Source of the DNA: a virus
Virus record (IMG/VR): IMGVR_UViG_3300031758_000036
Coordinates: 1-64,000 of that record
Strand: one strand, 5' to 3'
Length of the DNA stretch: 64,000 nucleotides
The number at the start of each line of letters is the position of its first letter. The first letter of the stretch is position 1. A model generated the notes under the pieces. It was not told the origin of the DNA, ran no database searches, and was given only the letters and a program-made list of their open reading frames with translations. The position numbers were made by a program, and so were the translations under genes. Of the stretch, positions 2,283-18,377 are shown piece by piece.

Positions 2283-2287
2283 TCGGT

Positions 2288-2485: not shown

Positions 2486-2499
2486 ATACTGGTGAGACG

Positions 2500-2916: not shown

Positions 2917-2918
2917 TC

Positions 2919-3747: not shown

Positions 3748-3907
3748 ACCGTGTCGTTTTAATCCAATGGCACAGCAATATATTGGCGCTCCAATCGGAA
3801 TGTTTCACTGCCCATTATGTGGCGAAATGGTACTGGCTGGCATGCCACACCCAGATTACAGCGCATGGGATTTGATTGATGCCGATAAACAGGGGGTAAA
3901 TTCATGA
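3728..3907 (+). CDS. Small zinc-ribbon-like protein
   Basis: This 59-residue protein contains FHCPLCGEMVLAGMPHPDY. A CxxC pair followed by a His is similar to single zinc knuckles seen in many small phage proteins. A second metal pair could come from the N-terminal Cys (EPCRFNP). ATG 3728 was chosen because it gives the compact form MNKSTTEPC. It overlaps both neighbours (ATGA at 3904). Function unknown. Confidence 0.65.
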   Translation: MNKSTTEPCRFNPMAQQYIGAPIGMFHCPLCGEMVLAGMPHPDYSAWDLIDADKQGVNS

Positions 3908-4083
3908 AACCCAAACTCCGAGTAATTTTGGAAAATGCTATCGAAGAAGGTGTTCGATATGGTTACCGTCGTGCTCATAAGCATGTGGCTGAACCAACTG
4001 AAGAATCAATCATCGAAGCAATTGAAGATGCTGTAATGTCCAGTATTACTGAATACTTTTCATTTGAGGATACGGACTTCTGA
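3904..4083 (+). CDS. Small conserved phage protein, 59 residues
   Basis: The translation reads MKPKLRVILENAIEEGVRYG, then YRRAHKHVAE and a helical acidic C-terminus. The EEGVRYGYRRAHKH segment is familiar from small phage proteins of unknown role. The start overlaps the previous stop (ATGA) and its own stop overlaps the next start (TGATG), consistent with coupled translation. Confidence 0.7.
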   Translation: MKPKLRVILENAIEEGVRYGYRRAHKHVAEPTEESIIEAIEDAVMSSITEYFSFEDTDF

Positions 4084-4250
4084 TGACCGAAGCAGAACAC
4101 GCCCATTGCTTAGCATATGCACTCAGAAATGTACTGAGCTACCCAGACAGCCAAAATGCCCTGGAATTGGCTCAAAAGACTTTAATCGCTTATTTCAGTA
4201 CACCACACCCTGAACTGAACAATGTTAATCATTCCAACTTCCCAGGTTGA
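4083..4250 (+). CDS. Small helical protein, 55 residues
   Basis: The frame starts at ATG 4083, overlapping the previous TGA, and translates as MTEAEHAHCLAYALRNVLSY followed by a helical remainder. Composition and coupling to neighbours support it as a gene. No family or motif is recognised. Confidence 0.55.
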   Translation: MTEAEHAHCLAYALRNVLSYPDSQNALELAQKTLIAYFSTPHPELNNVNHSNFPG

Positions 4251-4398
4251 AGAGTGGGAAGCAGAGTACAATCGCTTACAACTGAATAAGCAAATCTCAT
4301 TAGTCTCATTTTTGACTCATTGTGCAGCTACCTGGGGTTACGGCCAAGGCCTGACGGCAATGAACAATTTATTTAACATTGACCCCGAATGGCAATAA
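4222..4398 (+). CDS. Small hypothetical protein, 58 residues
   Basis: It begins inside the 3' end of the preceding gene and reads MLIIPTSQVEEWEAEYNRLQ, then a THCAATWGYGQG segment. It ends FNIDPEWQ. The Trp/Tyr/Gly segment looks protein-like and the gene continues the overlapping series. Function unknown. Confidence 0.55.
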   Translation: MLIIPTSQVEEWEAEYNRLQLNKQISLVSFLTHCAATWGYGQGLTAMNNLFNIDPEWQ

Positions 4399-4502
4399 AA
4401 CTTCATTACACCTTAGTAACTTAGACAATACCGAAAACACTATTCAGATCACTTGACCCCTTTTCATTTGGCTGTAGCATATGTACGACAACAGCTCCAC
4501 CA

Positions 4503-4766
4503 ATGGAAATCAGTCTTAATCCCGATCATCATCCCATCATGCAATTGAAGGATGATTTGGAAAATTTCCTAGAAGCAATAGACCCACATCCGGGTAGCGA
4601 GTTATTCGTTACTGGTCACAGATTTATCCATCAGCTATCAGAGTTACATGATTTGTATGTGATGGAATATCACATCGAATACATCGAATCATGTTGGCAA
4701 ATACCCGAATTCATCAATCCAAACCCCAATCAATCAAAGAAAGAAAGTGGACAAAGAAAGAAATAG
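4503..4766 (+). CDS. Hypothetical protein, last gene before the AT-rich gap
   Basis: This 87-residue acidic helical protein has a short basic tail (QSKKESGQRKK). A gap of about 100 bases (4399-4502), in which I see nothing definite, separates it from the run upstream. No family is recognised. Confidence 0.6.
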   Translation: MEISLNPDHHPIMQLKDDLENFLEAIDPHPGSELFVTGHRFIHQLSELHDLYVMEYHIEYIESCWQIPEFINPNPNQSKKESGQRKK

Positions 4767-4796
4767 ATAAATATTATCTATAGAGTATATATTATA

Positions 4797-4810
4797 TTAT
4801 CTATAGATAA
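4797..4810. repeat. Palindrome TTATCTATAGATAA, copy 1
   Basis: This is a perfect 14-bp palindrome in AT-rich DNA, repeated exactly at 5019-5032. It could be an operator for a dimeric repressor or one of paired sites flanking a structured element. A near copy (ATTATCTATAGAG) lies just upstream at about 4773-4785. Confidence 0.8.
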
Positions 4811-5018
4811 AAGTTATAGAAGTAACTATTGGTTTAACCCCTCTTAATTCTTTTACTACTACTACACCGACATGACGAGGAGTGAATTACATAGAATCAT
4901 TTACGTCAGTAAATGGTTTTATGTAATTCAGCTCCGAAGGAATGTCACTTGAGTACGTAGACCGCAAGGGATCGGCTTTATTATTGCAAGTCTCAAGCGT
5001 AAGTACCTTAATGTTATT

Positions 5019-5032
5019 TTATCTATAGATAA
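5019..5032. repeat. Palindrome TTATCTATAGATAA, copy 2
   Basis: This exact second copy of the 14-bp palindrome sits about 60 bases before the start of the gene at 5092. With copy 1 it brackets the predicted hairpins. Confidence 0.8.
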
Positions 5033-5091
5033 TATATAATCTATATAGTGTTATATTATTTATGCTATGGGGGAAGCTACCTCTGATCGCC

Positions 5092-5295
5092 ATGTCCACT
5101 GAACAATCAATGCCTACGGTTGCTGATGCCACCACAGCGCTGAAACAACTGCAATCAGACCTGTTGGAACTGATTGCTAACTATGAAAACCATTATGGCG
5201 TTTGCATCAACACCATCGATGTGAATCACCTGATAGCTATCGGCTACCCACGACGTACTGCCAGGGTATTGCTGACTGCTGAATTGATGGTTTGA
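5092..5295 (+). CDS. Hypothetical small protein
   Basis: This 67-residue helical protein starts MSTEQSMPTVADA and ends TARVLLTAELMV. ATG 5092 is preferred to 5062 because the latter would add an unrelated stretch overlapping the AT-rich region. No family is recognised. It follows the structured intergenic region and could be controlled by the palindromes there. Confidence 0.55.
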   Translation: MSTEQSMPTVADATTALKQLQSDLLELIANYENHYGVCINTIDVNHLIAIGYPRRTARVLLTAELMV

Positions 5296-5581
5296 TCCTG
5301 GGGCTCGTCAGCGCTATCTAGGGGGCCCTGGAAGGTGCTTGTGGGGGCATTCAGGTGTACTGACACCGGAGGGGTTGTTTCAGGCCCCTTGCGGGCGATT
5401 TAAACGCCATGTTTCACTTCGTTGGCTGGTATCGCAATTTTCACGTTTTTTGATATTTCCTGAAAATTGAAAATTGTTACAAATTATACAGTCTCACCTG
5501 TCTCAAATCAGTCTCAAATCAGACTGGGCCTGGTTTTGACCTATTTATAGGTACCGTATTTTTGAGAAAATTTTTGCTGTT
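5296..5581. other. Noncoding gap with tandem GTCTCAAATCA repeats
   Basis: No gene is seen in about 286 bases. GTCTCAAATCA occurs twice in exact tandem at 5500-5510 and 5511-5521, preceded by a partial copy GTCTCACCT at 5491-5499 and followed by GACTGG. Together they form CAGTCT...AGACTG arms. The leftward gene at 5582-5974 ends beside it. The tandem 11-mers could be operator or iteron half-sites. Confidence 0.6.
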
Positions 5582-5974
5582 TTATGATCTTATTAATTGA
5601 CCGTCACTATAACCATTCTGGTACAATGGACACATTGACATGTATTGCCATATCAGTGTTCTGATACGTTGTACCTCCATTTGTGGTGTGTAATTATTAT
5701 TTCCTTTTGCCTGTTCCCACTCTAAAACATCCGCTTTGGTAAGTACTCTACCACTAGACTCATTGTTCAGATCACTCAGTTTAGTTTGAGCAGTCTCAAA
5801 TTGATCAATTAAGTCTAGGACACTAAAGACAGCATCACTAGAGATAGCACCGAGATCATTCATAGATACGGTGATTTGGTCAATTTGATAACTACCTATT
5901 GTCAGACCGCTAGCAATAAGTAGCCGAACTTGATCACCTTGTGACCAGCCATAGGTAGTATTTAAAGTCGCCAT
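5582..5974 (-). CDS. Hypothetical protein, 130 residues
   Basis: The protein has a mixed N-terminal half (DQVRLLIASGLTIGSYQIDQITVSM) and a helical region with a probable coiled coil (LIDQFETAQTKLSDLNNES), then WEQAKGNNNYTPQMEVQRIRTLIWQYM. It could be a small structural or neck-type protein but no family is recognised. It is the first leftward gene of the accessory zone and stands alone. Confidence 0.6.
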   Translation of the reverse strand: MATLNTTYGWSQGDQVRLLIASGLTIGSYQIDQITVSMNDLGAISSDAVFSVLDLIDQFETAQTKLSDLNNESSGRVLTKADVLEWEQAKGNNNYTPQMEVQRIRTLIWQYMSMCPLYQNGYSDGQLIRS

Positions 5975-6046
5975 TTCCAGTGAAGTGTTGATACTTTATG
6001 GTTCCATTGGTGTTAGACTGGGTGAATAATATACCTTATAATATAT

Positions 6047-6268
6047 ATGGTAACAGCAAAGAAGTTTATCGAGTGCAATGTTGAGCTGGCACTGAGGGAT
6101 GCGATGGCGTTATGGTTGGCTATTGATTCTCAAGATGAGATTGCAGTGAGACAGTTATTACGGGAATTTGAGGCGTCTTATCCTGTTGGATATGGTAAGC
6201 AAGTAACTGTAAAAACACTGGCATTATTGTCGCCGGCCGACAAGGAATGGCTGCGTGAATTGTATTAG
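6047..6268 (+). CDS. Hypothetical small helical protein
   Basis: This 73-residue protein is predicted to be all-helical (ECNVELALRDAMALWLAIDS, ending SPADKEWLRELY). It is divergent from the gene at 5582-5974, with the shared upstream region at 5975-6046. Its stop is directly followed by the first of two 41-bp direct repeats. Function unknown. Confidence 0.6.
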   Translation: MVTAKKFIECNVELALRDAMALWLAIDSQDEIAVRQLLREFEASYPVGYGKQVTVKTLALLSPADKEWLRELY

Positions 6269-6376
6269 CGTGAACATAATTCCTTGAGTTTCTTAATGAA
6301 ACCTAGAAAGTGCGTTTTTTTCTGTTTTGTAACAACGTGAACATAAATCGCTGAGTTTCTTAATGAAACCTAGAAA
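6269..6376. repeat. Two 41-bp direct repeats with GTTTC/GAAAC core
   Basis: The copies occupy 6269-6309 and 6336-6376. They share CGTGAACATAA, then five variable bases, then TGAGTTTCTTAATGAAACC and TAGAAA. The core contains the inverted repeat GTTTC-TTAAT-GAAAC. The spacing is 67 bp, with 26 bp between copies. A two-copy CRISPR-like relic or a paired regulatory site are both possible; there are too few copies to call an array. Confidence 0.7.
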
Positions 6377-6451
6377 AACCCTGAAGCGCATGGGAGTGTT
6401 AAGAAATGTTACAGATGGCTGGGATCCGGAGCGGGTGCGCCGGCGTGGCGC

Positions 6452-6488
6452 GATCGTGAACGCCCAACGGGCGGTCGCCCACGATCAC
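6452..6488. repeat. Intergenic palindrome, family P, divergent copy 1
   Basis: Outer arms GATCGTG and CACGATC enclose an inner GCCC-AAC-GGGC stem. It resembles the later copies in having GATCGTGA at the left and CGATCAC at the right, but lacks their conserved centre. It lies downstream of the rightward gene at 6047 and downstream of the leftward gene at 6589, that is, between two convergent genes. Confidence 0.6.
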
Positions 6489-6543
6489 CATCTACGCTGT
6501 GTGGGGATCAAAACGCCATAACACTAGCATTATACTAATGACA

Positions 6544-6572
6544 ATAAAAAACGCCCCAAGATGAGGCGCTTG
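6544..6572 (-). terminator. Rho-independent terminator of the PcfJ-like gene
   Basis: Read leftward, AGCGCCTCATCTTGGGGCGT forms a GC-rich hairpin followed by TTTTTTATTG. It lies 17 bases beyond the stop of the leftward gene at 6589-8313. Confidence 0.8.
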
Positions 6573-6588
6573 AGTGTAGTTAATCGCT

Positions 6589-8313
6589 TCAGGCTGGCGT
6601 TAGCTGTTGCAGGGCCATTCCGAACGCTTCGGTGTACTGACTCTTTTCAGTATCGCTAAGCCGGCGGTTGCATGTGTCGGCAATCTGATCCACATTCAGG
6701 CTGCCATTGCTGAGCTTCAGTTGAATGGTGAAACGCGGGACATTATCAATCATTGCCAGAACGATAAAGTGCGTTTTACTTTTGATTCCCTTCCGGTAGG
6801 TATCTGCATTCCCCACACAATTCCGAACTGCCCGCCCCCACGCGGCAAGTTGATGGACATCTTGTGGCTGAAAAAACGACCACCGTTGCCCAGATAGATC
6901 CACCCGAACCGGCTCTGGAAAGAGATCCTGGTGCAATCTTTCATTAGGCGTAGACAGTTTGAAGCATTCTGCTGAAACGTAATCATGGAACTCCGTAATG
7001 CGCCAGCGGTTCGGTTTAGCAAGTTCGAGCGGTTGGTTTTCATCGTAGTTGCCGGTTTTCTTGGTTTGAGCGTAGTGAAGTTGATCGAGCATGCCAAGAG
7101 TATCTTCCAGTTCTCGCATGCGGCCAGTGGTCAGGCCAGTGGTGGAACTTCTGTCGTAATCAACCTTGCGGGGATTACCTGCCCATTCTTCCGTTAATTT
7201 GGCGACTTCTTTCTCCATGATTTGAATGAAAGAAGCTATTGGCGTGTTGTTGCGGATCCAGTCTTTGGTGGCTTTGCTTGCATCTGGGCCACGTTCGATG
7301 TGAGTTGTAAGGTTGTAAACTTGCTGGCAATGGTCTAGCGTCGCATCAGGATAGAATTGCAGAAAGTCAGTGAGCACATTGAATTTGTGACAGAAAGCCG
7401 CCCAAGGCCGTTTGACTGCTTGACGAGAATCGTTACCTGGATCCAGATAGACTTTCAAGCATTCGTCGAATGCCTTGTTAAGTTCTTTCCTGAAGAAAGG
7501 TGTATCCAGAGCTGACTTAGCCTTTTCACACTTGTGGCGCAGTAGCCAGTTAGTTGCTATTTCATTAAAACTGCGATCGTCGTCATTCTCAAGATCCGGC
7601 CAGAAGCAACGGCGAATGTCATTGTTTTCTTTAATACGCGTAAACATACCACCTTCATCATTCCATTGTCCCAGACTTGTCCTTAGGAGTCGTTTCCAAT
7701 CCTGATAGCGTTGGCGCTTATGGTAGTCAGTCCTGCCCCAACCTTTCAGTAGGTTCTCACCGGGAATTGCGTCAAAGCCTTTCAGAATGAGATCAGTGGT
7801 GACATGCACGGTGTGTTCGATCATCCCAAGGCGACCGTACTTTCTTTCAGCAGTGACACAAACGTCTGCAAGTCTAAGTACTTCAGAGTGTTTTTTCTTC
7901 CACCCAACTGAAGACTGCAGGATGCCACCAGCTCGCTGTACTGTTGCCGGAGTGTTTTTGTAAGCAATAGTGCAGCCAAACAGGTAATCCTTAGGATTCT
8001 GTTTCAGGTAGTTCGGATGCCAAAACCACAGCGCAGTCCAGACCGAAGACTTATGAACCAGAAGCCCAAAGCCCTTTTCATTGTTAATGGTCATTGCCCG
8101 ATCTTTTTCTGTTTCTTCGTTGATGCTGGTGGCGTAAGCCTTCTGTTCTTCTGTTGTAAACAGCTCAACAGGAAACAGGCCCTCGGGAACACCCAGCGAC
8201 ATACGCGGCGAACCGTCAGCCTTCTCTTTCTTGGCGGCCCGGATGATAGGCTTCAGCGCGGGGTCGTATTCTGCGACCTTGGCGGCCAGGGTGTGGGGGA
8301 GCTGGAAGTGCAT
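6589..8313 (-). CDS. PcfJ-like protein
   Basis: This 574-residue protein's C-terminal third carries the recognisable PcfJ-type signature. HQLAAWGRAVRNCVGNADTY and GIKSKTHFIVLAMID are followed by FTIQLKLSNGSLNVDQIADT and a conserved Asn/Arg tail. In other PcfJ-like proteins the pattern is a Cys-Val near a Tyr/Gly, a strand-rich core, then Q-x-x-G. PcfJ occurs on plasmids, mobile elements and phages; its biochemical role is not established. The N-terminal 400 residues are mostly helical and not assigned. It is the largest gene of the accessory zone, with its own promoter and terminator. Confidence 0.7.
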   Translation of the reverse strand: MHFQLPHTLAAKVAEYDPALKPIIRAAKKEKADGSPRMSLGVPEGLFPVELFTTEEQKAYATSINEETEKDRAMTINNEKGFGLLVHKSSVWTALWFWHPNYLKQNPKDYLFGCTIAYKNTPATVQRAGGILQSSVGWKKKHSEVLRLADVCVTAERKYGRLGMIEHTVHVTTDLILKGFDAIPGENLLKGWGRTDYHKRQRYQDWKRLLRTSLGQWNDEGGMFTRIKENNDIRRCFWPDLENDDDRSFNEIATNWLLRHKCEKAKSALDTPFFRKELNKAFDECLKVYLDPGNDSRQAVKRPWAAFCHKFNVLTDFLQFYPDATLDHCQQVYNLTTHIERGPDASKATKDWIRNNTPIASFIQIMEKEVAKLTEEWAGNPRKVDYDRSSTTGLTTGRMRELEDTLGMLDQLHYAQTKKTGNYDENQPLELAKPNRWRITEFHDYVSAECFKLSTPNERLHQDLFPEPVRVDLSGQRWSFFQPQDVHQLAAWGRAVRNCVGNADTYRKGIKSKTHFIVLAMIDNVPRFTIQLKLSNGSLNVDQIADTCNRRLSDTEKSQYTEAFGMALQQLTPA

Positions 8314-8336
8314 GGGTGATTCCCTCTGACTTGTCT

Positions 8337-8365
8337 AATGTAGCACCCTGGCCTGGCCAGCGCAA
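8337..8365 (-). promoter_or_regulatory. Sigma70-like promoter for the PcfJ-like gene
   Basis: Reading leftward, TTGCGC (8365-8360), a 17-base spacer and TACATT (8342-8337) precede the ATG at 8313 by about 24 bases. AGAGGGAA just before the start is the ribosome binding site. Spacer length and boxes fit a host vegetative promoter. Confidence 0.55.
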
Positions 8366-8415
8366 CGCCCTAACCAGAACAGGATGATGGTTGCAATATA
8401 AGTTAATATAAAGTG

Positions 8416-8458
8416 GTGAGCGTGACCAACATCTGCCTTCGGCGTTGGTCACGATCTC
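8416..8458. repeat. Intergenic palindrome, family P, copy 2
   Basis: GTGAGC is followed by nine-base arms GTGACCAAC (8422-8430) and GTTGGTCAC (8444-8452), and then GATCTCGC. Outer bases match other family members (GTGAGCGTGA at left, CACGATC at right) while the centre differs. It sits upstream of the PcfJ-like gene's promoter and downstream of the gene at 8503. Confidence 0.75.
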
Positions 8459-8502
8459 GCGCCACATCTGCACTGTAATAATTTGTTACAATATAATTAT
8501 TA

Positions 8503-8985
8503 TCAGAACATGCTGCCGATTTCCATATATTGTGGAGTCGGATCATAGTCTTGAATATCTACAACACATTTGCCGTAGTTTTCTATCACATAGGCCAGCC
8601 AACTGGCCAAGTCAGATGCGCTTGTTCCAACCTCTTCATCATCTGAATCGTAGTTGCCTATATTATATTTCAGGCCCCAATCAATGCGATAATTGTCGTC
8701 TATCGAGCCCTTGGTATCGTACCATAGCGGAGTTAATTCATAAGGCAAAATAGCCTGAGAAGCGTCTACCGTAATTTCAGCATTATCAATCGACGGTGAA
8801 TTTAGCAGCGTGCCAATATATTTAAAAAACTGCAGAGGCGTGCCTTCATGATATTCCGTCCGTGATTCCCTTTTTTTAATCTCGCGATTCCACACAACGC
8901 GCATAGTTGACCATTCAACCATACCAGAGGGCTGGGGGCGCGTATCTGTTGCCCAATCGGGCTCAAGCGGGCGAGGGTCGTGCAT
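8503..8985 (-). CDS. Hypothetical acidic protein
   Basis: This 160-residue acidic protein contains TPLQFFKYIGTLLNSPSIDNAEITVDASQ, a DSDDEEVGTSASDLASWLAYVIENYG stretch and an acidic Tyr-rich end. No catalytic motif, membrane segment or known family is seen. Leftward, TATGATCTAAGG and AACAGGGATGAACC lie just before the start and could be a -10 element and ribosome binding site. Confidence 0.6.
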   Translation of the reverse strand: MHDPRPLEPDWATDTRPQPSGMVEWSTMRVVWNREIKKRESRTEYHEGTPLQFFKYIGTLLNSPSIDNAEITVDASQAILPYELTPLWYDTKGSIDDNYRIDWGLKYNIGNYDSDDEEVGTSASDLASWLAYVIENYGKCVVDIQDYDPTPQYMEIGSMF

Positions 8986-9022
8986 GGTGGGTTCATCCCT
9001 GTTGCCCTTAGATCATAGCATA

Positions 9023-9044
9023 AAAAAGGGGGCCCGGTGGCCCC
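9023..9044 (-). terminator. Terminator after the gene at 9054
   Basis: Read leftward, GGGGCCACCGGGCCCCC forms a hairpin followed by TTTTTTATG. It lies 10 bases past the stop of the leftward gene at 9054-9374. Confidence 0.75.
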
Positions 9045-9053
9045 GTAATGAAA

Positions 9054-9374
9054 CTAATCATAAGCCCAAATCTCTCCCGATTCGGCCCATGGTGGTCGCG
9101 ATAATTTCTGCCATTCCGCTATTTCTGTGAAGTCCAATTGCTCGCCTGATTGTTTTTTAGTTTTCAGAATCTTGTACCTTTCTTTGTATTGATGATACAA
9201 CTGCCAGTCAAAGTTTGACGGCAAAGGTGAGGGCCCATACTTAGCTTTATTGTAAGCCTTCTCAGCCAATGGCAATAATGCTACCGCGCCAAGTGCAACC
9301 AATAAAAAAGGTGATGCTGGCAGGGCTGAGAATGAGCCAGTATTTTCATCGTAAGCCCATTTAATTTCGCTCAT
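9054..9374 (-). CDS. Small membrane-anchored protein
   Basis: This 106-residue protein has one hydrophobic helix near residues 22-36 (SPFLLVALGAVALLPLAEKA). A basic Tyr-rich segment follows (YNKAKYGPSPLP) and then a charged helical tail. Its start is directly adjacent to the stop of the preceding leftward gene, so the two are a coupled pair. Function unknown. Confidence 0.6.
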   Translation of the reverse strand: MSEIKWAYDENTGSFSALPASPFLLVALGAVALLPLAEKAYNKAKYGPSPLPSNFDWQLYHQYKERYKILKTKKQSGEQLDFTEIAEWQKLSRPPWAESGEIWAYD

Positions 9375-10082
9375 TTAATTAGCCATCGCATAACGGTTCT
9401 TGCTACGCCCGTGAGCATAGATCACTACGTTAGCAGAATTACCATCGCACAATGAACAAACGGAACATTCTGTTTTGTGGCCACGTTCATCGGACGCCGC
9501 ACAATGAACAGTCCCGACAGGATCAACAGAATCTACAGGTGTGACCAGATAGGTCTTCCAACCGTTAGTAGTTGCTTCCAAATAATCACTAAAACCATCG
9601 CAGGAGGCTTGTGCAATGCCTTTCATATATTGCGCCCACGGTTGACGCCATTGATGAGTGTAGGCTGTATGTGTACGGCTTCTCAGTAGCGGCTCAGTCC
9701 ATACATTAGCGGGTACCATTGCGCCATCGCCAGCAGAACCGATCCGCAGGGCGACATTATCAAATAGGTGCCAATCGTTACCGATGTGAGCATAGTTACC
9801 ACGCTTGTAGCAGTTCCATACACTGAGCGGGCCTTGATACCAGATAACGTAGCAAGTTGCTTCGTTATATCCAGCGTGCGTACAGTTGCCACATACTGAT
9901 CGACCGAGGCCATTTTTAAACGCCTCGTTTGGTTTAACATCTTGGCGCATGATCCACGTTTGAATCATCGCACCGGTTTTACTGTTACTACTGGAATCCT
10001 CAAATCCTGTTGCAATTACAACAATCGGAGCGCCGTCTAAGTTAGACGGACCCTCCCAAATAATGCGGCCGTTGTTGTTCAT
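9375..10082 (-). CDS. Conserved phage protein, Cys-rich (possibly DUF7227-like)
   Basis: The 235-residue form starts MNNNGRIIWEGPSNLDGAPI. It continues VVIATGFEDSSSNSKTGAMI, CGNCTHAGYNEATCYV and PLSVWNCYKRGNY. This arrangement (gly-pro-ser start, KTGAMIQTW, paired CxxC clusters, a conserved RGNY/W stretch) is found in an uncharacterised phage family I associate with DUF7227. The Cys pairs suggest metal binding or an Fe-S site. ATG at 10082 was chosen over an upstream start at 10169 because the extra 29 residues fall outside the conserved region. The C-terminus adds CAASDERGHKTECSVCSLCD, another Cys cluster. Confidence 0.65.
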   Translation of the reverse strand: MNNNGRIIWEGPSNLDGAPIVVIATGFEDSSSNSKTGAMIQTWIMRQDVKPNEAFKNGLGRSVCGNCTHAGYNEATCYVIWYQGPLSVWNCYKRGNYAHIGNDWHLFDNVALRIGSAGDGAMVPANVWTEPLLRSRTHTAYTHQWRQPWAQYMKGIAQASCDGFSDYLEATTNGWKTYLVTPVDSVDPVGTVHCAASDERGHKTECSVCSLCDGNSANVVIYAHGRSKNRYAMAN

Positions 10083-10239
10083 TTGGGTTAGCCCAGTTTT
10101 GGACTCTTCAAATTTAGCACACGATCCGGAAATTTGCAACCGGAAAATCCTGCAGGAAATTATTGACAAAAATTAGAGAAAATTAGCATTGAAATAATTG
10201 TTAACAAATAGCCGAATCGGGCTGCCTTGCGCTAGTATG

Positions 10240-10280
10240 GTGAGCGTGAATGAACCTGACTTCGTTCATTCACGATCTCT
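10240..10280. repeat. Intergenic palindrome, family P, copy 3
   Basis: GTGAGC precedes ten-base arms GTGAATGAAC (10246-10255) and GTTCATTCAC (10264-10273), followed by GATCTC. The right arm covers the stop codon of the leftward gene at 10270, so it lies at a gene end, as most copies do. Confidence 0.8.
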
Positions 10281-10419
10281 CGCCTGGATCTACTATATTT
10301 ATCTCACACAGAATGCGGTCCTCAAACATAGAATCGCAGAGGTCCGTAGCCTCATCAGCCGAAGCATACGGACCATATACGTTGCCGTCCTCATCAGTAA
10401 CAACGTAGAACTGCGTCAT
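10270..10419 (-). CDS. Small acidic protein, 49 residues
   Basis: The frame reads MTQFYVVTDEDGNVYGPYAS, then ADEATDLCDSMFEDRIL and a short acidic tail. It begins one base after the TAA of the leftward gene at 10420 (stop and start abut), so it is the third member of a coupled trio with 10765 and 10420. The composition, rich in Asp/Glu, resembles its neighbours. No family is recognised. Confidence 0.6.
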   Translation of the reverse strand: MTQFYVVTDEDGNVYGPYASADEATDLCDSMFEDRILCEINIVDPGERS

Positions 10420-10761
10420 TTATCCATATACAATTTCCTTAAAACAAGCTACTTGGATAATAGCATCAGCAGCATATCCGTCAATATACCCATAATCATT
10501 TTCCTTAATTGCTGCCATTATATCGGCGCGAATATTATCAGAAATTTCAACTCTATTTTCAGTAATAAGTGCAATAGCACGCTCGGCATCTGACTTACAG
10601 ACTGTATGAATTTCAGCCCCCTCTTCACAAGAAAGGGAATAGATCTCGCTGACAGCATCATACTCTGCCTCGTCAACCCAGTAACCGATAGCATAGCCGG
10701 CGGTGTCGAAGATGTCAGCGAAGTCGTCGCTTGTTAGGTTGAAATTAATTGTAATTTGCAT
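10420..10761 (-). CDS. Hypothetical acidic protein
   Basis: This 113-residue protein starts MQITINFNLTSDDFADIFDT. It has a strand-then-helix pattern, YAIGYWVDEAEYD and a helical C-terminal half. The composition is strongly acidic. Small acidic phage proteins of this kind are often host- or DNA-mimic inhibitors, but there is no direct evidence for that here. It lies 3 bases downstream of the gene at 10765. Confidence 0.6.
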   Translation of the reverse strand: MQITINFNLTSDDFADIFDTAGYAIGYWVDEAEYDAVSEIYSLSCEEGAEIHTVCKSDAERAIALITENRVEISDNIRADIMAAIKENDYGYIDGYAADAIIQVACFKEIVYG

Positions 10762-10764
10762 GGC

Positions 10765-10950
10765 TCAAACCTCCATCAGATCGGCGTAACCGGCATCCAG
10801 AGCATCCTCAAGCTCGGTTACTAGGCCATCAAAGTCTTCACTGGCTGGCAGAACTGTAATCAGAACGTCTACCAAACCACCGTATTCCTCGCGCAAACTA
10901 TTCAGGTAGTCTGCGCGATCGATGAAGCCGTTGTCGGTGTAAACAGTCAT
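10765..10950 (-). CDS. Small acidic protein, 61 residues
   Basis: It starts MTVYTDNGFIDRADYLNSLR and ends LEDALDAGYADLMEV. ATG 10950 was chosen over 10992 because a leftward promoter (TTGCCA, 17 bp, TATCAT) and GGGAGTC lie immediately upstream of it. It is acidic and helical. First gene of a leftward trio with 10420 and 10270. Function unknown. Confidence 0.6.
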   Translation of the reverse strand: MTVYTDNGFIDRADYLNSLREEYGGLVDVLITVLPASEDFDGLVTELEDALDAGYADLMEV

Positions 10951-10973
10951 GGGTGAACCCGGTTGACTCCCTA

Positions 10974-11002
10974 ATGATAGCACTGCTGGCAAATGTTGGC
11001 AA
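10974..11002 (-). promoter_or_regulatory. Sigma70-like promoter for the trio 10950-10270
   Basis: Leftward TTGCCA (11002-10997), a 17-base spacer and TATCAT (10979-10974) precede the ATG at 10950 by 23 bases. The gap between palindrome copy 4 and the gene contains little else. Confidence 0.6.
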
Positions 11003-11027
11003 GCCTGGCTCCGGCGCGTTGCGAATT

Positions 11028-11066
11028 GTGACCGTGAGCAGCAACCGTAGGGCCGCTCACGGTCAC
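11028..11066. repeat. Intergenic palindrome, family P, copy 4 (perfect arms)
   Basis: Perfect 12-base arms GTGACCGTGAGC (11028-11039) and GCTCACGGTCAC (11055-11066) flank AGCAACCGTAGGGCC. This is the first copy with the GACCGTAGGGCC-type centre that marks the later ones. The stop codon of the leftward gene at 11063 lies inside the right arm. Confidence 0.9.
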
Positions 11067-11350
11067 GCGTCTTCTGGCTTCAGTTCAGTGATCTGGCCGT
11101 CAACCTTGATGCGGAACACGCGGCGAGCATCGAAACTGCGCCATTGACCCAACTTGATATCCATGATCTTGAAGTTGTTAAGCTTCGTGACAGGATCCTT
11201 AATCGGGTGGCCAGTGCCCAGTACTTGACCCTTGTGCAGCGGATTGAACGTCAGTTGACGCTCGCTGCCATCGGCCTTGATGAAATTGACAGAAACCAAG
11301 TGGGAGCCGGCTTCTGAAATTTTTGCGCGGATAACTTCGTGGTTAGACAT
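11063..11350 (-). CDS. SH3-like beta-barrel protein (WYL_2-type)
   Basis: This 95-residue protein begins MSNHEVIRAKISEAGSHLVS. Its VNFIKADGSERQLTFNP, then LGQWRSFDARRVFRIKVDG pattern matches small phage SH3-like proteins (WYL_2 family), in which a strand with K-x-DG-S-x-R precedes a W-R-S-F motif. The family is common in phages; the role is not known. ATG 11350 follows CAGGGAACCACCC, which supplies the ribosome binding site. It stands alone between palindrome copies 4 and 5. Confidence 0.7.
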   Translation of the reverse strand: MSNHEVIRAKISEAGSHLVSVNFIKADGSERQLTFNPLHKGQVLGTGHPIKDPVTKLNNFKIMDIKLGQWRSFDARRVFRIKVDGQITELKPEDA

Positions 11351-11410
11351 GGGTGGTTCCCTGTTCTGGAAAAATCCTAGCACAGATCGGGCCGGGTGCG
11401 GACGCGAGCT

Positions 11411-11449
11411 GATCGTGAGCAATGACCGTAGGGCCGCTCACGCTCACGG
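11411..11449. repeat. Intergenic palindrome, family P, copy 5
   Basis: Arms CGTGAGC (11414-11420) and GCTCACG (11436-11442) flank AATGACCGTAGGGCC. GATC precedes and CTCACGG follows. It separates the leftward gene at 11063 from the rightward gene at 11481. Confidence 0.85.
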
Positions 11450-11480
11450 TGTGTTATCATTCAATCAGGAGGGAAGACCC

Positions 11481-11639
11481 ATGTCAGTCACTGAATCTTT
11501 CGAACGCTTCCTTGCTCTGGAGGAACAATCCCTGGAGCGCATCGAGACCCTGCTGGCCAGCATCCGTGAGGATATTGCCTGGCTGGAAGCCCTGGATGCC
11601 GATGAACAGGCGCTGGAGGTGACATGTAACGAGGTGTGA
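11481..11639 (+). CDS. Small helical protein, 52 residues
   Basis: It starts MSVTESFERFLALEEQSLER and continues as one long acidic helix (IREDIAWLEALDADEQ). AGGAGGGA seven bases upstream of ATG 11481 is a strong ribosome binding site and fixes the start. It is one of only two rightward genes in the palindrome array. A coiled-coil or dimeric fold is possible. Confidence 0.65.
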   Translation: MSVTESFERFLALEEQSLERIETLLASIREDIAWLEALDADEQALEVTCNEV

Positions 11640-11674
11640 CCGTGATCAATGACCGTAGGGCCGCTCACGCTCAC
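11638..11674. repeat. Intergenic palindrome, family P, copy 6
   Basis: GACCGTGATC, then AATGACCGTAGGGCC, then GCTCACGCTCAC. The left arm overlaps the stop region of the gene at 11481. Two mismatches separate the arms from perfect complementarity. Confidence 0.85.
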
Positions 11675-11698
11675 CATTTCACCTAACGGAAAAATCCA

Positions 11699-11875
11699 AT
11701 GAACGCCACCGAATTGAACGCCAAAGCTCAAGAATTGCTGGACGCGATCTGGGGACCGATCTCGGAATTTCAAGCCATGCGTAACGACTCTGGCCCCGTT
11801 TCCTGGGATGCAGCCAGTGAGGCCCGTAACTGGCTTGATAAGCTTTGTGAAATCGAGTACGTGCTAGAGTCTTGA
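11699..11875 (+). CDS. Small hypothetical protein, 58 residues
   Basis: It starts MNATELNAKAQELLDAIWGP and ends CEIEYVLES. It is predicted helical with WGPISEFQAMRNDSGPVSWD in the middle. It fits exactly between palindrome copies 6 and 7, with its stop abutting copy 7. No strong ribosome binding site is visible (CTAACGGAAAAATCC). Function unknown. Confidence 0.6.
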   Translation: MNATELNAKAQELLDAIWGPISEFQAMRNDSGPVSWDAASEARNWLDKLCEIEYVLES

Positions 11876-11910
11876 TCGTGAACAATGACCGGAGGGCCGC
11901 TCACGCTCAC
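11875..11910. repeat. Intergenic palindrome, family P, copy 7
   Basis: GATCGTGAAC, AATGACCGGAGGGCC, then GCTCACGCTCAC. It lies between convergent stops of the genes at 11699 (rightward) and 11907 (leftward), touching both. Confidence 0.85.
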
Positions 11911-12179
11911 TCGTAATCGCGTCGCCGCGTGCTATCCCATTCAGCCTGCTCGCAACGGGCAGTGTGCCACAGGTCGCGTAAATCGTAGGCGAACAGATTT
12001 AGAATTTCGTAGGTGACGCATTGCAGCCCCTCTTGGATGCATTCGCTGTCAACGTCATCTAGGACACTAAACACCCAGGCTGCATCAATCTCAGTGAGAT
12101 CGCTGGGAATGTCAAAGTCGGACAGGTCGTCTAGATGGGCCCACAGGGGGCTGAGATCGACTGCAGTGGCTGTGGTCAT
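11907..12179 (-). CDS. Hypothetical acidic protein
   Basis: This 90-residue protein starts MTTATAVDLSPLWAHLDDLS and is acidic in its first half, ending with a basic RRRDYE. ATG 12179 was chosen because a promoter (12205-12233) lies directly upstream and the longer frame would run back through palindrome copy 8. Its stop lies in copy 7. No family is recognised. Confidence 0.65.
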   Translation of the reverse strand: MTTATAVDLSPLWAHLDDLSDFDIPSDLTEIDAAWVFSVLDDVDSECIQEGLQCVTYEILNLFAYDLRDLWHTARCEQAEWDSTRRRDYE

Positions 12180-12204
12180 TGGATTGGCTCCATTGGATGT
12201 GACT

Positions 12205-12233
12205 AGCATAGCCTGTTTGGCGGCCAGGCGCAA
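12205..12233 (-). promoter_or_regulatory. Sigma70-like promoter for the gene at 11907
   Basis: Leftward TTGCGC (12233-12228), exactly 17 bases, then TATGCT (12210-12205), 26 bases before ATG 12179. The -35 box matches that of the PcfJ-like gene. Confidence 0.55.
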
Positions 12234-12245
12234 GTGCTGTAACTG

Positions 12246-12281
12246 ATCGTGATCAATGACCGTAGGGCCGTTCACGCTCAT
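12246..12281. repeat. Intergenic palindrome, family P, copy 8
   Basis: GATCGTGATC, AATGACCGTAGGGCC, then GTTCACGCTCA. It lies between the promoter of the gene at 11907 and the stop of the leftward gene at 12278. Confidence 0.85.
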
Positions 12282-12517
12282 GCCTTGGAGCGTAGCACCG
12301 GCTGGCTGTAGGTGTCAACAACCAGCTCCAACCACTGCCGCGCAACGGTTCCGGCTTTGCAGATGTCGCGAGCCAGGAGCACGGTCTCACGTGAGACCGT
12401 ATCGGCAGTGCCGCTGATGAGAGCCCAGGCATCGGCCCAGGTGGTAGGGGTGGCCTGCAGGACCTCATAAGCCTGCAGGATTTCAGCCTTGGTGGAGCGG
12501 GAAGTGATCTGAGCCAT
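12278..12517 (-). CDS. Hypothetical helical protein, 79 residues
   Basis: It starts MAQITSRSTKAEILQAYEVL, with TTWADAWALISGTADTVSRE and a helical end. ATG 12517 follows AACAGGGACTACCC, matching the AGGGA-type ribosome binding sites of its neighbours. No separate promoter is evident between it and copy 9, so it may be read from further upstream. Function unknown. Confidence 0.65.
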   Translation of the reverse strand: MAQITSRSTKAEILQAYEVLQATPTTWADAWALISGTADTVSRETVLLARDICKAGTVARQWLELVVDTYSQPVLRSKA

Positions 12518-12539
12518 GATGGGTAGTCCCTGTTGGATG

Positions 12540-12578
12540 GTGAGCGTGATCAATGACCGTAGGGCCGTTCGCGATCAC
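12540..12578. repeat. Intergenic palindrome, family P, copy 9 (near consensus)
   Basis: GTGAGCGTGATC, AATGACCGTAGGGCC, GTTCGCGATCAC. The 12-base outer arms pair with three mismatches. Copies 9 and 10 differ at one base over 39 (GTA versus GCA in the centre). Confidence 0.9.
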
Positions 12579-12626
12579 AATTCGGAAAATTCCTGGGGAA
12601 AATTCCTGGGGAAATTCCTGGGAATT

Positions 12627-12899
12627 TCAGTAGCGGATTTCTCCGGGCAGAACGGGACGCAAGTTCAGCGGCTCACGGGCGGATTCATAGCAGTCCAACT
12701 CGGTCTTCAATTGCCTGGCTTTCTCCCGCATCAGCGCGACATCGGCAAGCGGTGCGCGGTTCACTAGAACCTCCCCTTCAAACAGGGTATCATTCAGTAA
12801 TCCGACCTTGGCGATAGCATCCTCGATTGCCAGCCAGGCTTCGTCAAAGGCCTGACTGTAGGCGGCGGTGGCGTGAGCGGGGCAGAGTGTGGCTGTCAT
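12627..12899 (-). CDS. Hypothetical helical protein, 90 residues
   Basis: It starts MTATLCPAHATAAYSQAFDE and is predicted helical (DEAWLAIEDAIAKVGLLN, LADVALMREKARQLKTELD). ACCGGGAGAACCCACC precedes the start. A sigma70-like promoter lies 25 bases upstream. A GGAAATTCC-type short repeat (TTCCTGGGGAAA, three times) lies beyond its stop at 12586-12622. Function unknown. Confidence 0.65.
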   Translation of the reverse strand: MTATLCPAHATAAYSQAFDEAWLAIEDAIAKVGLLNDTLFEGEVLVNRAPLADVALMREKARQLKTELDCYESAREPLNLRPVLPGEIRY

Positions 12900-12924
12900 G
12901 GTGGGTTCTCCCGGTAACTTGGTC

Positions 12925-12952
12925 AGTCTACAGGATGGTGGGCAGATGTCAA
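12925..12952 (-). promoter_or_regulatory. Sigma70-like promoter for the gene at 12627
   Basis: Leftward TTGACA (12952-12947), 16 bases, TAGACT (12930-12925). The -35 box is a perfect consensus match. It lies between palindrome copy 10 and the gene. Confidence 0.65.
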
Positions 12953-12955
12953 CGG

Positions 12956-12994
12956 GTGAGCGTGATCAATGACCGCAGGGCCGTTCGCGATCAC
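12956..12994. repeat. Intergenic palindrome, family P, copy 10
   Basis: GTGAGCGTGATC, AATGACCGCAGGGCC, GTTCGCGATCAC. The TGA that ends the read-through extension of the gene at 13096 lies in its right end (12991-12993). Confidence 0.9.
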
Positions 12995-13404
12995 GCTGCG
13001 AGCCGCTCTGCCTGCTGCAGGAACCAGTTATCGGCATCTAAGCGCATCGGCCACTCCTCAGAGCCCTCCCAAGGCGCCGTGGTGGTATGCCACTCCTAAT
13101 CAGTCTGGGAGATGCCCTCACCCGGCACGAAGGCCCGTAGCAGGGCGTTCAGGCGGCTCTTAGTGGTGGATGTGCGGTACCCGCAATCAAACAGGGAGAT
13201 CCTCATGATGCCGGGTTCGACAAGTCCGATCCGATGGCCGTGCAGCAGGATCTCAACGTGCCGATGGTGGCTGAGGGTGCCACCGATGCCGTGGTGTTTA
13301 ACGGTGACTTCGGTGTTGCCGCACTTGAGCAGTCGGCCGGCCTTGTGGGAGTCGCTCAGGGCGGAACGGATGGCTTGGATCATCCGGGCTTCAGTCTTGC
13401 GCAT
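12991..13404 (-). pseudogene. Small conserved phage-type protein interrupted by an in-frame TAG
   Basis: From ATG 13404 the frame gives 102 residues (MRKTEARMIQAIRSALSDSH ... TSTTKSRLNALLRAF ... GEGISQTD) and meets TAG at 13098-13096. The same frame then continues for 34 codons, starting EWHTTTAPWEGSEEWPMRLD, to TGA at 12993-12991 inside palindrome copy 10. That is where other genes of this array end. The STTKSRLNALL and GEGISQ segments are familiar from small phage proteins whose C-terminus continues past this point with a Trp-rich stretch. A nonsense mutation, programmed read-through or amber recoding are all possible. Confidence 0.65.
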
Positions 13405-13431
13405 GGGGGTGTTCCCTCTGGGGTTAACAGG

Positions 13432-13461
13432 AGACTAGCGTGGATTGAATCGAGGTGTCAA
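13432..13461 (-). promoter_or_regulatory. Sigma70-like promoter for the gene at 13404
   Basis: Leftward TTGACA (13461-13456), 18 bases, TAGTCT (13437-13432). CCAGAGGGAACACCCCC before ATG 13404 provides the ribosome binding site. Confidence 0.6.
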
Positions 13462-13470
13462 CAGGATGGC

Positions 13471-13507
13471 GATCGTGAGCATTGACCGTAGGGCCGTTCG
13501 CGATCAC
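13471..13507. repeat. Intergenic palindrome, family P, copy 11
   Basis: GATCGTGAGC, ATTGACCGTAGGGCC, GTTCGCGATCAC. It follows the promoter of the interrupted gene. No gene lies between it and copy 12. Confidence 0.85.
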
Positions 13508-13621
13508 GGTTTGCCCCTGAAGGCGAAAATTTGGACCTCGCTGGTTCGGCGCTCCGGAACGGCATGATCGTGAAGTCCCTGAATTACTAAATCCGGCCAG
13601 ATCGCCGCCCTGAGCTGCAAT

Positions 13622-13663
13622 GTGAGCGTGAAAACAATCGACCGCAGGGCCGTTCGCGATCAC
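13622..13663. repeat. Intergenic palindrome, family P, copy 12
   Basis: GTGAGCGTGAAAAC, AATCGACCGCAGGGCC, GTTCGCGATCAC. There are a few extra bases in the left half compared with copies 9 and 10. Confidence 0.8.
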
Positions 13664-13697
13664 GGTTCCTGATTAGCTGGTGAGCGGTGCTTGCAGG

Positions 13698-13744
13698 ATG
13701 AGCGTGAACAGCCCCTGTCACCCGCCCACCCGCCCCACGATCAC
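13698..13744. repeat. Intergenic palindrome, family P, degenerate copy 13
   Basis: GATGAGCGTGAACA at the left and CCCCACGATCAC at the right keep the family ends, while the centre is replaced by a C-rich CCCGCCCACCCG tract. It appears to be a decayed or recombined copy. Confidence 0.6.
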
Positions 13745-13749
13745 AATTC

Positions 13750-13805
13750 GTAACATAAGGATTACTGATGTTACAATTCCGCAACATAAGAGTTGCTGAT
13801 GTTAC
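13750..13805. repeat. Palindrome family Q, cluster 1 (two copies)
   Basis: Copy 1 (13750-13774) has arms GTAACATAAG and CTGATGTTAC around GATTA. Copy 2 (13781-13805) has arms GCAACATAAG and CTGATGTTAC around AGTTG. The centre-to-centre spacing is 31 bp, about three helical turns. Related copies occur at 14719-14816. They could be operator sites or replication iterons. Confidence 0.8.
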
Positions 13806-13867
13806 AGTGCTGTCGCGGATTGTGACATAACGGTAGCGTTATGGTGCTATGGCGTTTGCATTAAAAA

Positions 13868-13887
13868 GGCCCTGAGATTTCAGGGCC
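13868..13887. terminator. Bidirectional-looking terminator after the gene at 13898
   Basis: GGCCCTGA and TCAGGGCC form an eight-base stem with a four-base loop. Read leftward it is followed by TTTTTAATG, so it ends the leftward gene at 13898-14236. Confidence 0.85.
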
Positions 13888-13897
13888 ATTCTTGTCG

Positions 13898-14236
13898 TTA
13901 ATTCTCGCTGATTAGGTACCGGCAAAAATATAGAGAATCCTCGGGGATCTCGTTATTTTCTGGGACGTTCTCGATTGAACACCACTTGGTGCCGTCTGAT
14001 TCCTCACTCCTCCAGGTGGAAGGGGCGAAGTCAATGCAGGCAAGATCCTCTCGGATCAGTTGCATCAATTCAGTCCGATTGACGCACCAATGAAGCCAGG
14101 CCTCGATATTCCGTCCGCTTGGTGATACCTCGGCACGAATGTACCAGTCGGTATCGATCGAGCAGTAGCTGAGGGCGTTCTCCAACATCTTGCCGTCAAT
14201 CAGTGTCGCCTTGGCGGTGGTCGGTGCTGCGATCAT
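13898..14236 (-). CDS. Hypothetical protein, 112 residues
   Basis: It starts MIAAPTTAKATLIDGKMLEN and contains DTDWYIRAEVSPSGRNIEAW, a strand-rich core, then RTELMQLIREDLACIDF. It looks like a small alpha/beta domain with several Trp and Cys residues. It has its own terminator. No family is recognised. Confidence 0.6.
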   Translation of the reverse strand: MIAAPTTAKATLIDGKMLENALSYCSIDTDWYIRAEVSPSGRNIEAWLHWCVNRTELMQLIREDLACIDFAPSTWRSEESDGTKWCSIENVPENNEIPEDSLYFCRYLISEN

Positions 14237-14264
14237 TTGGATGATTCCAGAAAGTAAGAAAGGG

Positions 14265-14284
14265 GGGGACCCTTAAGGGTCCCC
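14265..14284 (-). terminator. Perfect 20-bp palindrome terminator
   Basis: GGGGACCCTTAAGGGTCCCC is perfectly self-complementary and, read leftward, is followed by CCCTTTCTTACT. It lies just past the stop of the leftward gene at 14291. Confidence 0.75.
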
Positions 14285-14290
14285 TGTTGC

Positions 14291-14581
14291 TCACTGCCAG
14301 TCGCGCCAGGCTTCGTGATTCATTTGCCAGAGCAGGTCGCCGATGGCGCCTGTCTTCAGGAAGTCGAACCACTGGGTTTTGCAGGCGTATTCTGCGCGGC
14401 CCATCAGGCCGGGCAGGTCGCTGAGGTCAGCCAGCAGCAGCGGCGGCAGTCCGGCATCGTAGCCGGCTACAACAGCATCCTGCCGGAGGTCCAGGGCAGC
14501 CCAGAGCAGGGCGACAAGGGCGGAGCGACCGTCATCACGGGCGGCCTTGAAGGCGTACCGGACGGTGTTAGCGATGGTCAT
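14291..14581 (-). CDS. Hypothetical helical protein, 96 residues
   Basis: It starts MTIANTVRYAFKAARDDGRS, followed by ALVALLWAALDLRQDAVVAG and ADLSDLPGLMGRAEYAC. It is GC-rich, leucine- and alanine-rich, and predicted helical without a clear membrane segment. It has its own terminator. Upstream, a CTAGGATA-like box matches the region before the gene at 11350. Function unknown. Confidence 0.65.
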   Translation of the reverse strand: MTIANTVRYAFKAARDDGRSALVALLWAALDLRQDAVVAGYDAGLPPLLLADLSDLPGLMGRAEYACKTQWFDFLKTGAIGDLLWQMNHEAWRDWQ

Positions 14582-14718
14582 GAAGGATGATTCCGTTGTT
14601 AAGGTGCGTGCGATCGGTTTCCCTCTCGCATGCCTGTATCCTAGCGCCCGTGCCCGCCGATCGGGGCCATTGTGAAGGATTGCAACAATGATCTTTCCTT
14701 ATCAGTCGCTGCGCGACA

Positions 14719-14816
14719 GATCAGCAACCCTGATCGATCAGCACCGCTGATGTCACAAGCGTGTAACATCAGCATCGCTTATGTTACAAATCCGACACAT
14801 TAGCATTGCTGATGTG
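14719..14816. repeat. Palindrome family Q, cluster 2 (four copies)
   Basis: 14719-14735: GATCAGCA-ACC-CTGATC. 14736-14753: GATCAGCACC-GCTGATGTC. 14763-14787: arms GTAACATCAG and CTTATGTTAC around CATCG. 14796-14816: arms CACATTAGCA and TGCTGATGTG. All share an AT(C/A)AG...CTGAT core with the two copies near 13.77 kb. Confidence 0.75.
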
Positions 14817-14859
14817 TGATCGTGGGGGTTATGGCGTACGGGTGTGGCGCCACGATCAC
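14816..14859. repeat. Intergenic palindrome, family P, copy 14
   Basis: Perfect ten-base arms GTGATCGTGG (14816-14825) and CCACGATCAC (14850-14859). The outer arms match the family but the centre (TTATGGCGTACGGGTG) differs. It is the right-hand end of the array. Confidence 0.75.
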
Positions 14860-15065
14860 GATGCGGTGCTGCGCTCCTGCCTGAGCCTGTCACTGGGCCT
14901 CCAGCAAGAGCTGGCGGCGACTAAATTCCACCGAGTTGCCGGCGGATTCGCCAGGTACCCCCACCCCGATTTTCGGATTCTCTCCTCTAGGTTATCCCCC
15001 CGCAAAATTTTTCAAAAAATTTGAATTGGGACACTAAGCAATAAACCAGTCTTACAGCGGTACAG

Positions 15066-17542: not shown

Positions 17543-17965
17543 TTAAGCAACACTTAAATCTGTATCATTTGATACAGTTTTTGTTTTTATTAATGATTGA
17601 TGATCATTGTTCAGCCATTGTTTGATGCGCCATTCAGCATTTGCATCATAAAAAGACTGTTCTCGATACCATTCAACCCAATCGCGAGATGCTTTTGAGT
17701 GATTGCATGATACACATGCTGGTGTTACGTTATTTGTACGATCTGTTCCGCCTTTTGACTTTGGCCTGATGTGATCAATCGTTAAGCTAAGGTCATCAAT
17801 TGGAGGCTTACCGCAGTAAGCGCAACAATAATTCCATGCTTGTTTAACCGATTCTCGCCATTGCCTACGTGCTTCTTTGCGTGTCAAGGCGGACATATTG
17901 GATAAATAATCAGAAGAATGCTCGTACAAGGGGTAAATATCCCCAGCGGTCCATGGACCTAGCAT
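17543..17965 (-). CDS. HNH endonuclease
   Basis: This 140-residue protein has CAYCGKPPIDD, LTIDHIRPKSKGGTDRTNNV and ACVSCNHSK. That gives a zinc-binding CxxC pair at each end and the DH...N catalytic core (Asp-His in IDHIRP, Asn in TNNV). It is a free-standing homing-type endonuclease inserted leftward between tail genes. Its 3' end overlaps a terminator for the rightward chaperone gene. Confidence 0.9.
   Translation of the reverse strand: MLGPWTAGDIYPLYEHSSDYLSNMSALTRKEARRQWRESVKQAWNYCCAYCGKPPIDDLSLTIDHIRPKSKGGTDRTNNVTPACVSCNHSKASRDWVEWYREQSFYDANAEWRIKQWLNNDHQSLIKTKTVSNDTDLSVA
17560..17582 (+). terminator. Terminator after the tail chaperone genes
   Basis: CTGTATCATTTGATACAG (17560-17577) is a strong hairpin followed by TTTTTGTTTTT. 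It lies 24 bases past the rightward stop, within the last codons of the leftward HNH gene. Confidence 0.75.
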
Positions 17966-18082
17966 GTGATTATTTATTTGTATGGTTTTGGATGTTATAG
18001 CCAGTCAATCGAACCAAGGGGAGCTTAAAGATAGCCATATCTTGGTGTTAGAATGTTGACATATGTTTCCCATTTGGAGCAG

Positions 18083-18337: not shown

Positions 18338-18377
18338 TCAGGCAACCTAAGGTCGGATTGTTTCTAATATTTCAACA

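Follow-up and report, generated by a model that had tools for sequence, protein, structure and literature searches.

The 64,000-nucleotide (nt) stretch analysed here (the window) comprises bases 1-64000 of an 85,756-bp virus record, IMGVR_UViG_3300031758_000036, and carries at 6451-14858 an array of small genes divided by 14 palindromes. In the siphoviruses of aquatic cyanobacteria that carry it, the array is a fast-changing region and the palindrome is the repeated separator of its mostly single genes. Sequence comparison among related phages shows gain, loss, and reordering of array genes, with an occasional inversion, and the units concerned have their edges in the palindrome. The palindrome is probably a connector at which single genes are exchanged, with relaxed homologous recombination as the probable route.

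A family of palindromes with near-invariant arms

The palindromes are 37-44 bp long and have near-invariant arms, TGANCGTGA...TCACGNTCA. A search of positions 6001-15000 for pairs of TGANCGTGA and TCACGNTCA, allowing up to two mismatches, recovers 14 pairs; 100 dinucleotide shuffles give 0.1 on average and never more than 1. An earlier note on this DNA had listed 14 palindromes, and all are present close to where it placed them. The rest of the 85.8-kb record holds a single further arm match, at 48539. An Rfam scan of the window returns no match.

An asymmetric centre, found on the + strand only, is common to nine core copies (4-12; 11029-13662), and it points one way irrespective of gene direction, as the earlier note had observed. 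These are copy 4 (11029-11065), copy 5 (11410-11446), which lies between two divergent genes, copy 6 (11637-11673), whose left arm contains the stop TGA of gene 11481-11639, copy 7 (11873-11909), which lies between convergent genes and contains both stop codons, copy 8 (12244-12280), whose right arm contains the stop of gene 12278-12517, and copies 9 (12541-12577), 10 (12957-12993), 11 (13470-13506), and 12 (13623-13662). Copy 12 has a 3-nt insertion, and no gene lies between it and copy 11. Copies 1-3 and 13-14, to which no strand is assigned, keep the arms and differ from the core in the centre. Copy 1 (6451-6487) has conserved arms around a different centre; copies 2 (8417-8457) and 3 (10241-10278) are of a near-perfect hairpin type, copy 2 bordering a multi-gene block; and copies 13 (13699-13743) and 14 (14817-14858) share only the arms, their centres being divergent. 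A half-site, TGATCGTGA, stands between copies 11 and 12 at 13565-13573 with no partner arm and is possibly a decayed palindrome copy.

Palindrome arrays in related phages

The major capsid protein of the record is closest to those of the Synechococcus siphophages S-CRES3, S-CBS2, S-CRES2, and S-CRES1 (67-73% identity), and the record encodes a tape-measure protein of type TMP_3. With S-CRES3 and S-CBS2 as its capsid kin and a TMP_3 tape measure, the virus falls outside the T4-type myoviruses. Relatives were gathered through homologues of the capsid gene, which gave 80 loci; the neck gene was searched in 33 of their records, and the upstream regions were then fetched. A direct arm search was used for these relatives, as it proved more specific than a covariance model.

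Some 20 related records have the same arms, among them those of the isolates S-CRES1 and S-CRES2. The palindromes there mostly lie upstream of the neck genes, and their centre is different and locally homogeneous. Records with arrays include G021, G008, G035, G025, G011, G034, G016, G002, G030, G036, G037, and G038, together with others, and a cassette gene led to an additional array contig, L265. A record holds up to 15 palindrome copies. S-CRES1 and S-CRES2 have two copies, which border the annotated genes gp66-67 of S-CRES2. In S-CRES2 (L255 17336-17847) the two annotated genes between the palindromes include one labelled S-adenosyl-L-methionine hydrolase, for which an anti-restriction function is possible.

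No palindrome is present in the whole genome of S-CBS2 or in the scanned part of S-CRES3. MedDCM-OCT-S38-C3 carries a homologue of gene 13096-13404, and the part of it that was examined holds no credible palindrome. A BLAST search of phages with the consensus palindrome gives chance-level matches only, though the arm scan detects S-CRES1 and S-CRES2. The exact core motif has three matches in viral contigs, all GC-rich, and these were rejected as chance. A looser core pattern, run against 84,980 bacterial and archaeal genomes, gives 41 scattered single matches, none in a genome titled cyanobacterium; because these matches read as chance, no array is inferred in a host.

Cassette rearrangement between phages

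Gene families are common to arrays in differing order: F42-F6-F27 in the window, F6-F42 in G008, and F27-F6 in G034 and G030. The close pair G016/G035 shares cassettes F60, F28, and F6 at 93.4, 89.9, and 91.3% DNA identity, ordered F60-x-F28-F6 in one phage and F28-...-F60-F6 in the other. Alignments of these cassettes end in palindromes, and the DNA beyond is unrelated; the exception is one F6 alignment end that extends about 40 nt further through similar spacer. Because the cassettes are 90-93% identical in a pair whose neck regions share 80% and then 70% identity, the cassettes were probably exchanged recently between lineages. At the joins the arm travels with the gene but a different centre is found, which probably places the crossover within the palindrome.

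Other phages show cassettes F6 and F58 aligned exactly from palindrome to palindrome. Two gene families occur in both orientations: measured against the centre, F6 is inverted in G011 and F35 is inverted in G025. The earlier note had read the region as a modular cassette array with the palindrome as boundary and had suggested comparing relatives for shuffling of single genes; the arms found in related phages, the families shared in different order, and the three cassettes rearranged with joins in palindromes uphold that reading.

Stop codons, termination and promoters

The sequence TGA-NCG-TGA gives each arm two stop codons in tandem in the same frame. The first of these TGAs closes 34 genes; for three others it is mutated to AGA, and the second serves instead. 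Since the element is palindromic, the tandem stop serves genes on either strand, and copy 7 terminates the reading frames of two convergent genes simultaneously. With a tandem stop at both ends and on both strands, the element provides a proper gene end whichever way the gene runs.

Intervals were counted in sampled arrays, using gene calls from a program retrained on array genes. Exactly one gene lies in 61 of 76 intervals; the exceptions are mostly small operons bordered by near-perfect hairpins. The palindrome overlaps the stop or lies within 11 nt of it in about 50 of the 61 single-gene intervals. Two descriptions in the earlier note fit these counts, namely that palindromes sit at gene ends, often at the stop, where stop codons do overlap or abut the arms, and that one gene on either strand fills each interval from 11.03 to 13.0 kb. 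Exactly one palindrome separates the neighbouring genes of every divergent (7/7), convergent (7/7), and ++ (6/6) pair, and of the -- pairs, 43 have one palindrome, 19 have none, and two have more than one.

A position at gene 3' ends would also be expected if the palindromes were gene-attached elements, either transcription terminators or 3' stem-loops of the mRNA, that stand at cassette joins as a by-product, and the compensatory pairing of the inner stem described below would agree with such a role. However, a T-run stands beside the palindrome in only 8 of 186 flanks, all seven divergent pairs have a palindrome though no gene ends there, many downstream genes begin 18-28 nt past the palindrome without space for a promoter, and the orientation of the centre is independent of gene direction. 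The divergent pairs and the scarcity of T-runs disfavour a gene-linked intrinsic terminator, a conclusion that the earlier note had anticipated, and terminators or 3' stem-loops are an unlikely primary explanation. Cyanobacteria are generally held to lack Rho, which, with T-runs absent, leaves no obvious route of termination.

About half of the genes in sampled arrays begin 18-54 nt from a palindrome, many without space for a promoter. Promoter sites are weakly enriched in 25 longer spacers, five of which score at least 9/12 where 0.67 are expected and shuffles reach 6. Good promoter-like sites are seen in some cassettes only, such as TTGACA-N16-TAGACT upstream of 12627-12899. The claim in the earlier note that most genes have their own sigma70-like promoter thus survives for some cassettes and not, given the short spacers, for the majority of genes.

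Stem, centre and likeness of neighbouring copies

Seven outer arm pairs hardly vary among 72 core copies. This near-invariance points to constraint on sequence rather than pairing and is uninformative on RNA. Where the core centre is lacking (24 copies), the inner arms differ widely in sequence yet stay complementary through compensatory change. Their inner stems form 4.04 of 6 pairs, compared with 2.33 when the arms are re-dealt (maximum 3.04 in 2000 re-dealings), so the stem is probably under selection in these copies. The asymmetry between G-U and A-C, used as an indicator of the folding strand, is mixed. The folded stem would probably play a secondary role in the transcript, for example in 3' protection or partial termination.

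Outer arms held nearly constant beyond what pairing demands might instead be bound by a protein of the phage or host. A regulator, for instance, could stop or reset transcription from one cassette to the next, much as mycobacteriophage stoperators do. The distance between the arms, however, varies by more than 10 bp, which is awkward for one dimer on duplex DNA, and no candidate regulator came to light. Protein binding therefore seems an improbable basis for the array.

Among orientable core copies the direction of the centre is constant within every phage, regardless of gene direction, and it is reversed relative to the neck in G025 and G041. Neighbouring copies are the most alike in 7/7 arrays tested (adjacent-copy permutation p 0.0005 to 0.04), and the mean edit distance between copies is 5.35 within a phage and 8.50 between phages. 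Identical centre triplets can often be seen in adjacent pairs in the alignment. If genes are exchanged at the palindrome by homologous recombination, then recombination within the array and conversion between copies would give each phage its own centre and render neighbouring copies most alike. In a dedicated phage cassette system, which might have the same outcome, the folded palindrome would be the recognition site of a phage or host enzyme. That enzyme would insert, move, or invert genes there one at a time, and its copying of the centre would make adjacent sites similar. Such a system is a rather doubtful alternative.

Recombination machinery

The earlier note had also suggested a recombination site, an idea that finds no support as regards site-specific recombination, as three recombinase families went undetected in 23 records. 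Tyrosine recombinases (PF00589) are found in 0/23 records, with a positive control of 14/14 genomes, and serine recombinases and Y1 (HUH) transposases are likewise found in 0/23, positive controls included. Pfam scans of the 94 proteins of the window's record detect no recombinase.

These absences bear on a site-specific system like an integrase-less integron cassette array (CALIN), acting on folded single strands. Hairpin sites in one orientation, one gene per site, an asymmetric centre, and cassette shuffling all recall such an array. Yet beyond the lack of an enzyme, paired attC R boxes, taken here as RYYYAAC...GTTRRRY, occur in 0 of 101 sites, the centre tracks location and not the gene, and a gene may face either way and may be turned round relative to the site, all of which leaves this explanation quite unlikely.

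Mobile palindromic repeats inserted between genes, akin to repetitive extragenic palindromes (REP) or miniature inverted-repeat transposable elements (MITE), would similarly leave many palindromic copies, each some 40 bp long, in non-coding gaps and produce expansions that differ among phages. The palindromes, however, are restricted to one genome region in a single fixed orientation, one per gene, and the stop codon lies exactly within the arm; neither a Y1 transposase in the 23 records nor a GTAG foot was found. Insertion of such repeats is very improbable.

The same Pfam scans find proteins that could serve homologous exchange. A weak match to PF06378 identifies a Sak-like single-strand annealing protein (53222-53947, + strand), proposed here as the recombination enzyme, and a PD-(D/E)XK nuclease-like protein (DUF3799; 56881-57732, + strand) is a possible partner nuclease. 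A single-strand binding protein (SSB; 54946-55299, + strand), RusA, and a DNA ligase are also encoded. Sak-like proteins occur in 14/23 records, above the cut-off in 9. Rad52-like phage recombinases promote exchange between short, diverged sequences, leading to mosaicism (PMC3945230). The minimum for Red-beta pairing is 23-27 bp, Sak not being among the recombinases tested there (PMC3945230), and by this measure palindromes of 37-44 bp are compatible with Rad52-like exchange. Exchange would then proceed by relaxed-fidelity homologous recombination, pairing 37-44 bp palindromes from genomes that co-infect a cell or are being replicated, and the phage's own Sak-type annealing protein, with nuclease, SSB, and resolvase, may be the catalyst.

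Several points weigh against exchange at a connector. Recombination is read here from the end states preserved in sequence, the close phage pairs available for comparison amount to one (G016/G035), and the gene caller is home-made, with the array genes as its training set. Sak is also present in array-less relatives and so does not account for the existence of the array. The fixed orientation of the centre is left unexplained by the stop-codon role, and conservation of the arms across phages exceeds the needs of homology-driven exchange, which hints at a binding protein or a role in RNA.

Genomic setting and genes of the array

The two ends of the record are identical over 127 bases, forming a 127-bp terminal repeat. 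The array, at 6.4-14.9 kb, lies immediately upstream of the neck genes. Its right part (11001-15000) has a G+C content of 55-58%, against about 45% for the genome, and codon scores derived from structural genes do not work there; together, these two features suggest a different source for the array cassettes. Just before the array, a direct repeat of 50 nt (6260-6309 / 6327-6376; 88% identical) contains CGTGAACATAA...CTTAATGAAACCTAGAAA. A second small repeat family, GTAACATNAGNATTGCTGATGTTAC and its variants, is partly palindromic and occurs in the window at 13750-13802 and 14732-14815 and in the arrays of G042 and G008. Elsewhere, one protein from the set encoded at 1045-6268, 17543-18827, or 43995-62636 matches intein splicing and LAGLIDADG domains.

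On the left of the array, a PcfJ-like gene of family F41 (6589-8313, - strand) lies between copies 1 and 2, and its homologues are bordered by palindromes in G021 and G005 too. Two three-gene blocks follow on the - strand, one of families F26, F12, and F16 (8503-10082) between copies 2 and 3 and one that includes F33 and F65 (10270-10950) between copies 3 and 4. The single-gene cassettes begin with F11 (11063-11350, -), whose stop codon is within the arm of copy 4. A + strand cassette at 11481-11639 ends within the arm of copy 6, and copy 7 holds the stops of both F35 (11699-11875, +), which has the opposite orientation relative to the centre in G025, and F42 (11907-12179, -). F6 (12278-12517, -), the most widely shared cassette, has its stop within the arm of copy 8. 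F27 (12627-12899, -) is the cassette with the promoter-like site given above, and F40 (13096-13404, -) encodes Kyano_Gp96 (PF23790), also found in T4-like cyanophages. Two genes (13898-14581, -) lie between copies 13 and 14. A recurrent translation start region, AGGGAANCACCCATG, is found upstream of many array genes, for example at 8314-8331, 10951-10968, and 11351-11370.

Implications

It has long been asked how phages acquire, shed, and rearrange their numerous small genes of unassigned function, and in these arrays the joins are visible. One short connector appears to let single genes be swapped between phages that are otherwise rather diverged, and its two arms, each with a tandem stop, form a simple design in which a gene fits in either orientation. 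The connector offers a handle for gathering accessory genes from metagenomes, many of which probably act on the host. S-CRES1 and S-CRES2, with their two copies, provide a starting point in culture.

Comparison with known systems

Promoter-early stem-loops (PeSLs) are composite promoter-terminator motifs of T4-like myoviruses (Arbiol 2010 and Comeau 2014, cited in PMC4503421). As far as the account given there describes them, PeSLs and the window's palindromes are alike in being repeated stem-loops between the small genes of a plastic phage region, where they form joins for gene shuffling. Set against that account, the window's palindrome has no T-run and generally no promoter in the element, occurs in a siphovirus, carries a tandem stop in each arm, and keeps its centre in a fixed orientation regardless of gene direction. 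The array is PeSL-like in effect and, by the PeSL features summarised in that source, is not a PeSL, differing in promoter, terminator, and phage type.

Integrons and CALINs share with this array mostly single-gene units bordered by hairpin-forming sites of constant orientation. The window's array, in contrast, has no integrase and no R boxes, its centre belongs to the location, and its genes run in both directions; it falls outside the definition of an integron in both site and enzyme. Intrinsic terminators also place a stem-loop directly after the stop codon, whereas the palindrome here lacks a T-run and is present between divergent genes as well. REP and bacterial interspersed mosaic elements (BIME) resemble the family in their many intergenic palindromes near gene ends, but the window's palindromes occupy one confined region, have a tandem stop in the arm, and are accompanied by neither a tetranucleotide foot motif (GTAG) nor a transposase of the REP-associated tyrosine transposase (RAYT) type.

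Mycobacteriophage stoperators are short asymmetric repressor sites that occur in many copies, in short intergenic gaps and in fixed orientation. The family resembles them as a single multicopy site in short intergenic gaps with a fixed orientation, and differs from these non-palindromic sites, which do not overlap stops, in consisting of palindromes that overlap stop codons. The tandem stop in both arms, the orientation-locked centre, and the likeness between neighbouring copies are features unusual for a system of this sort.

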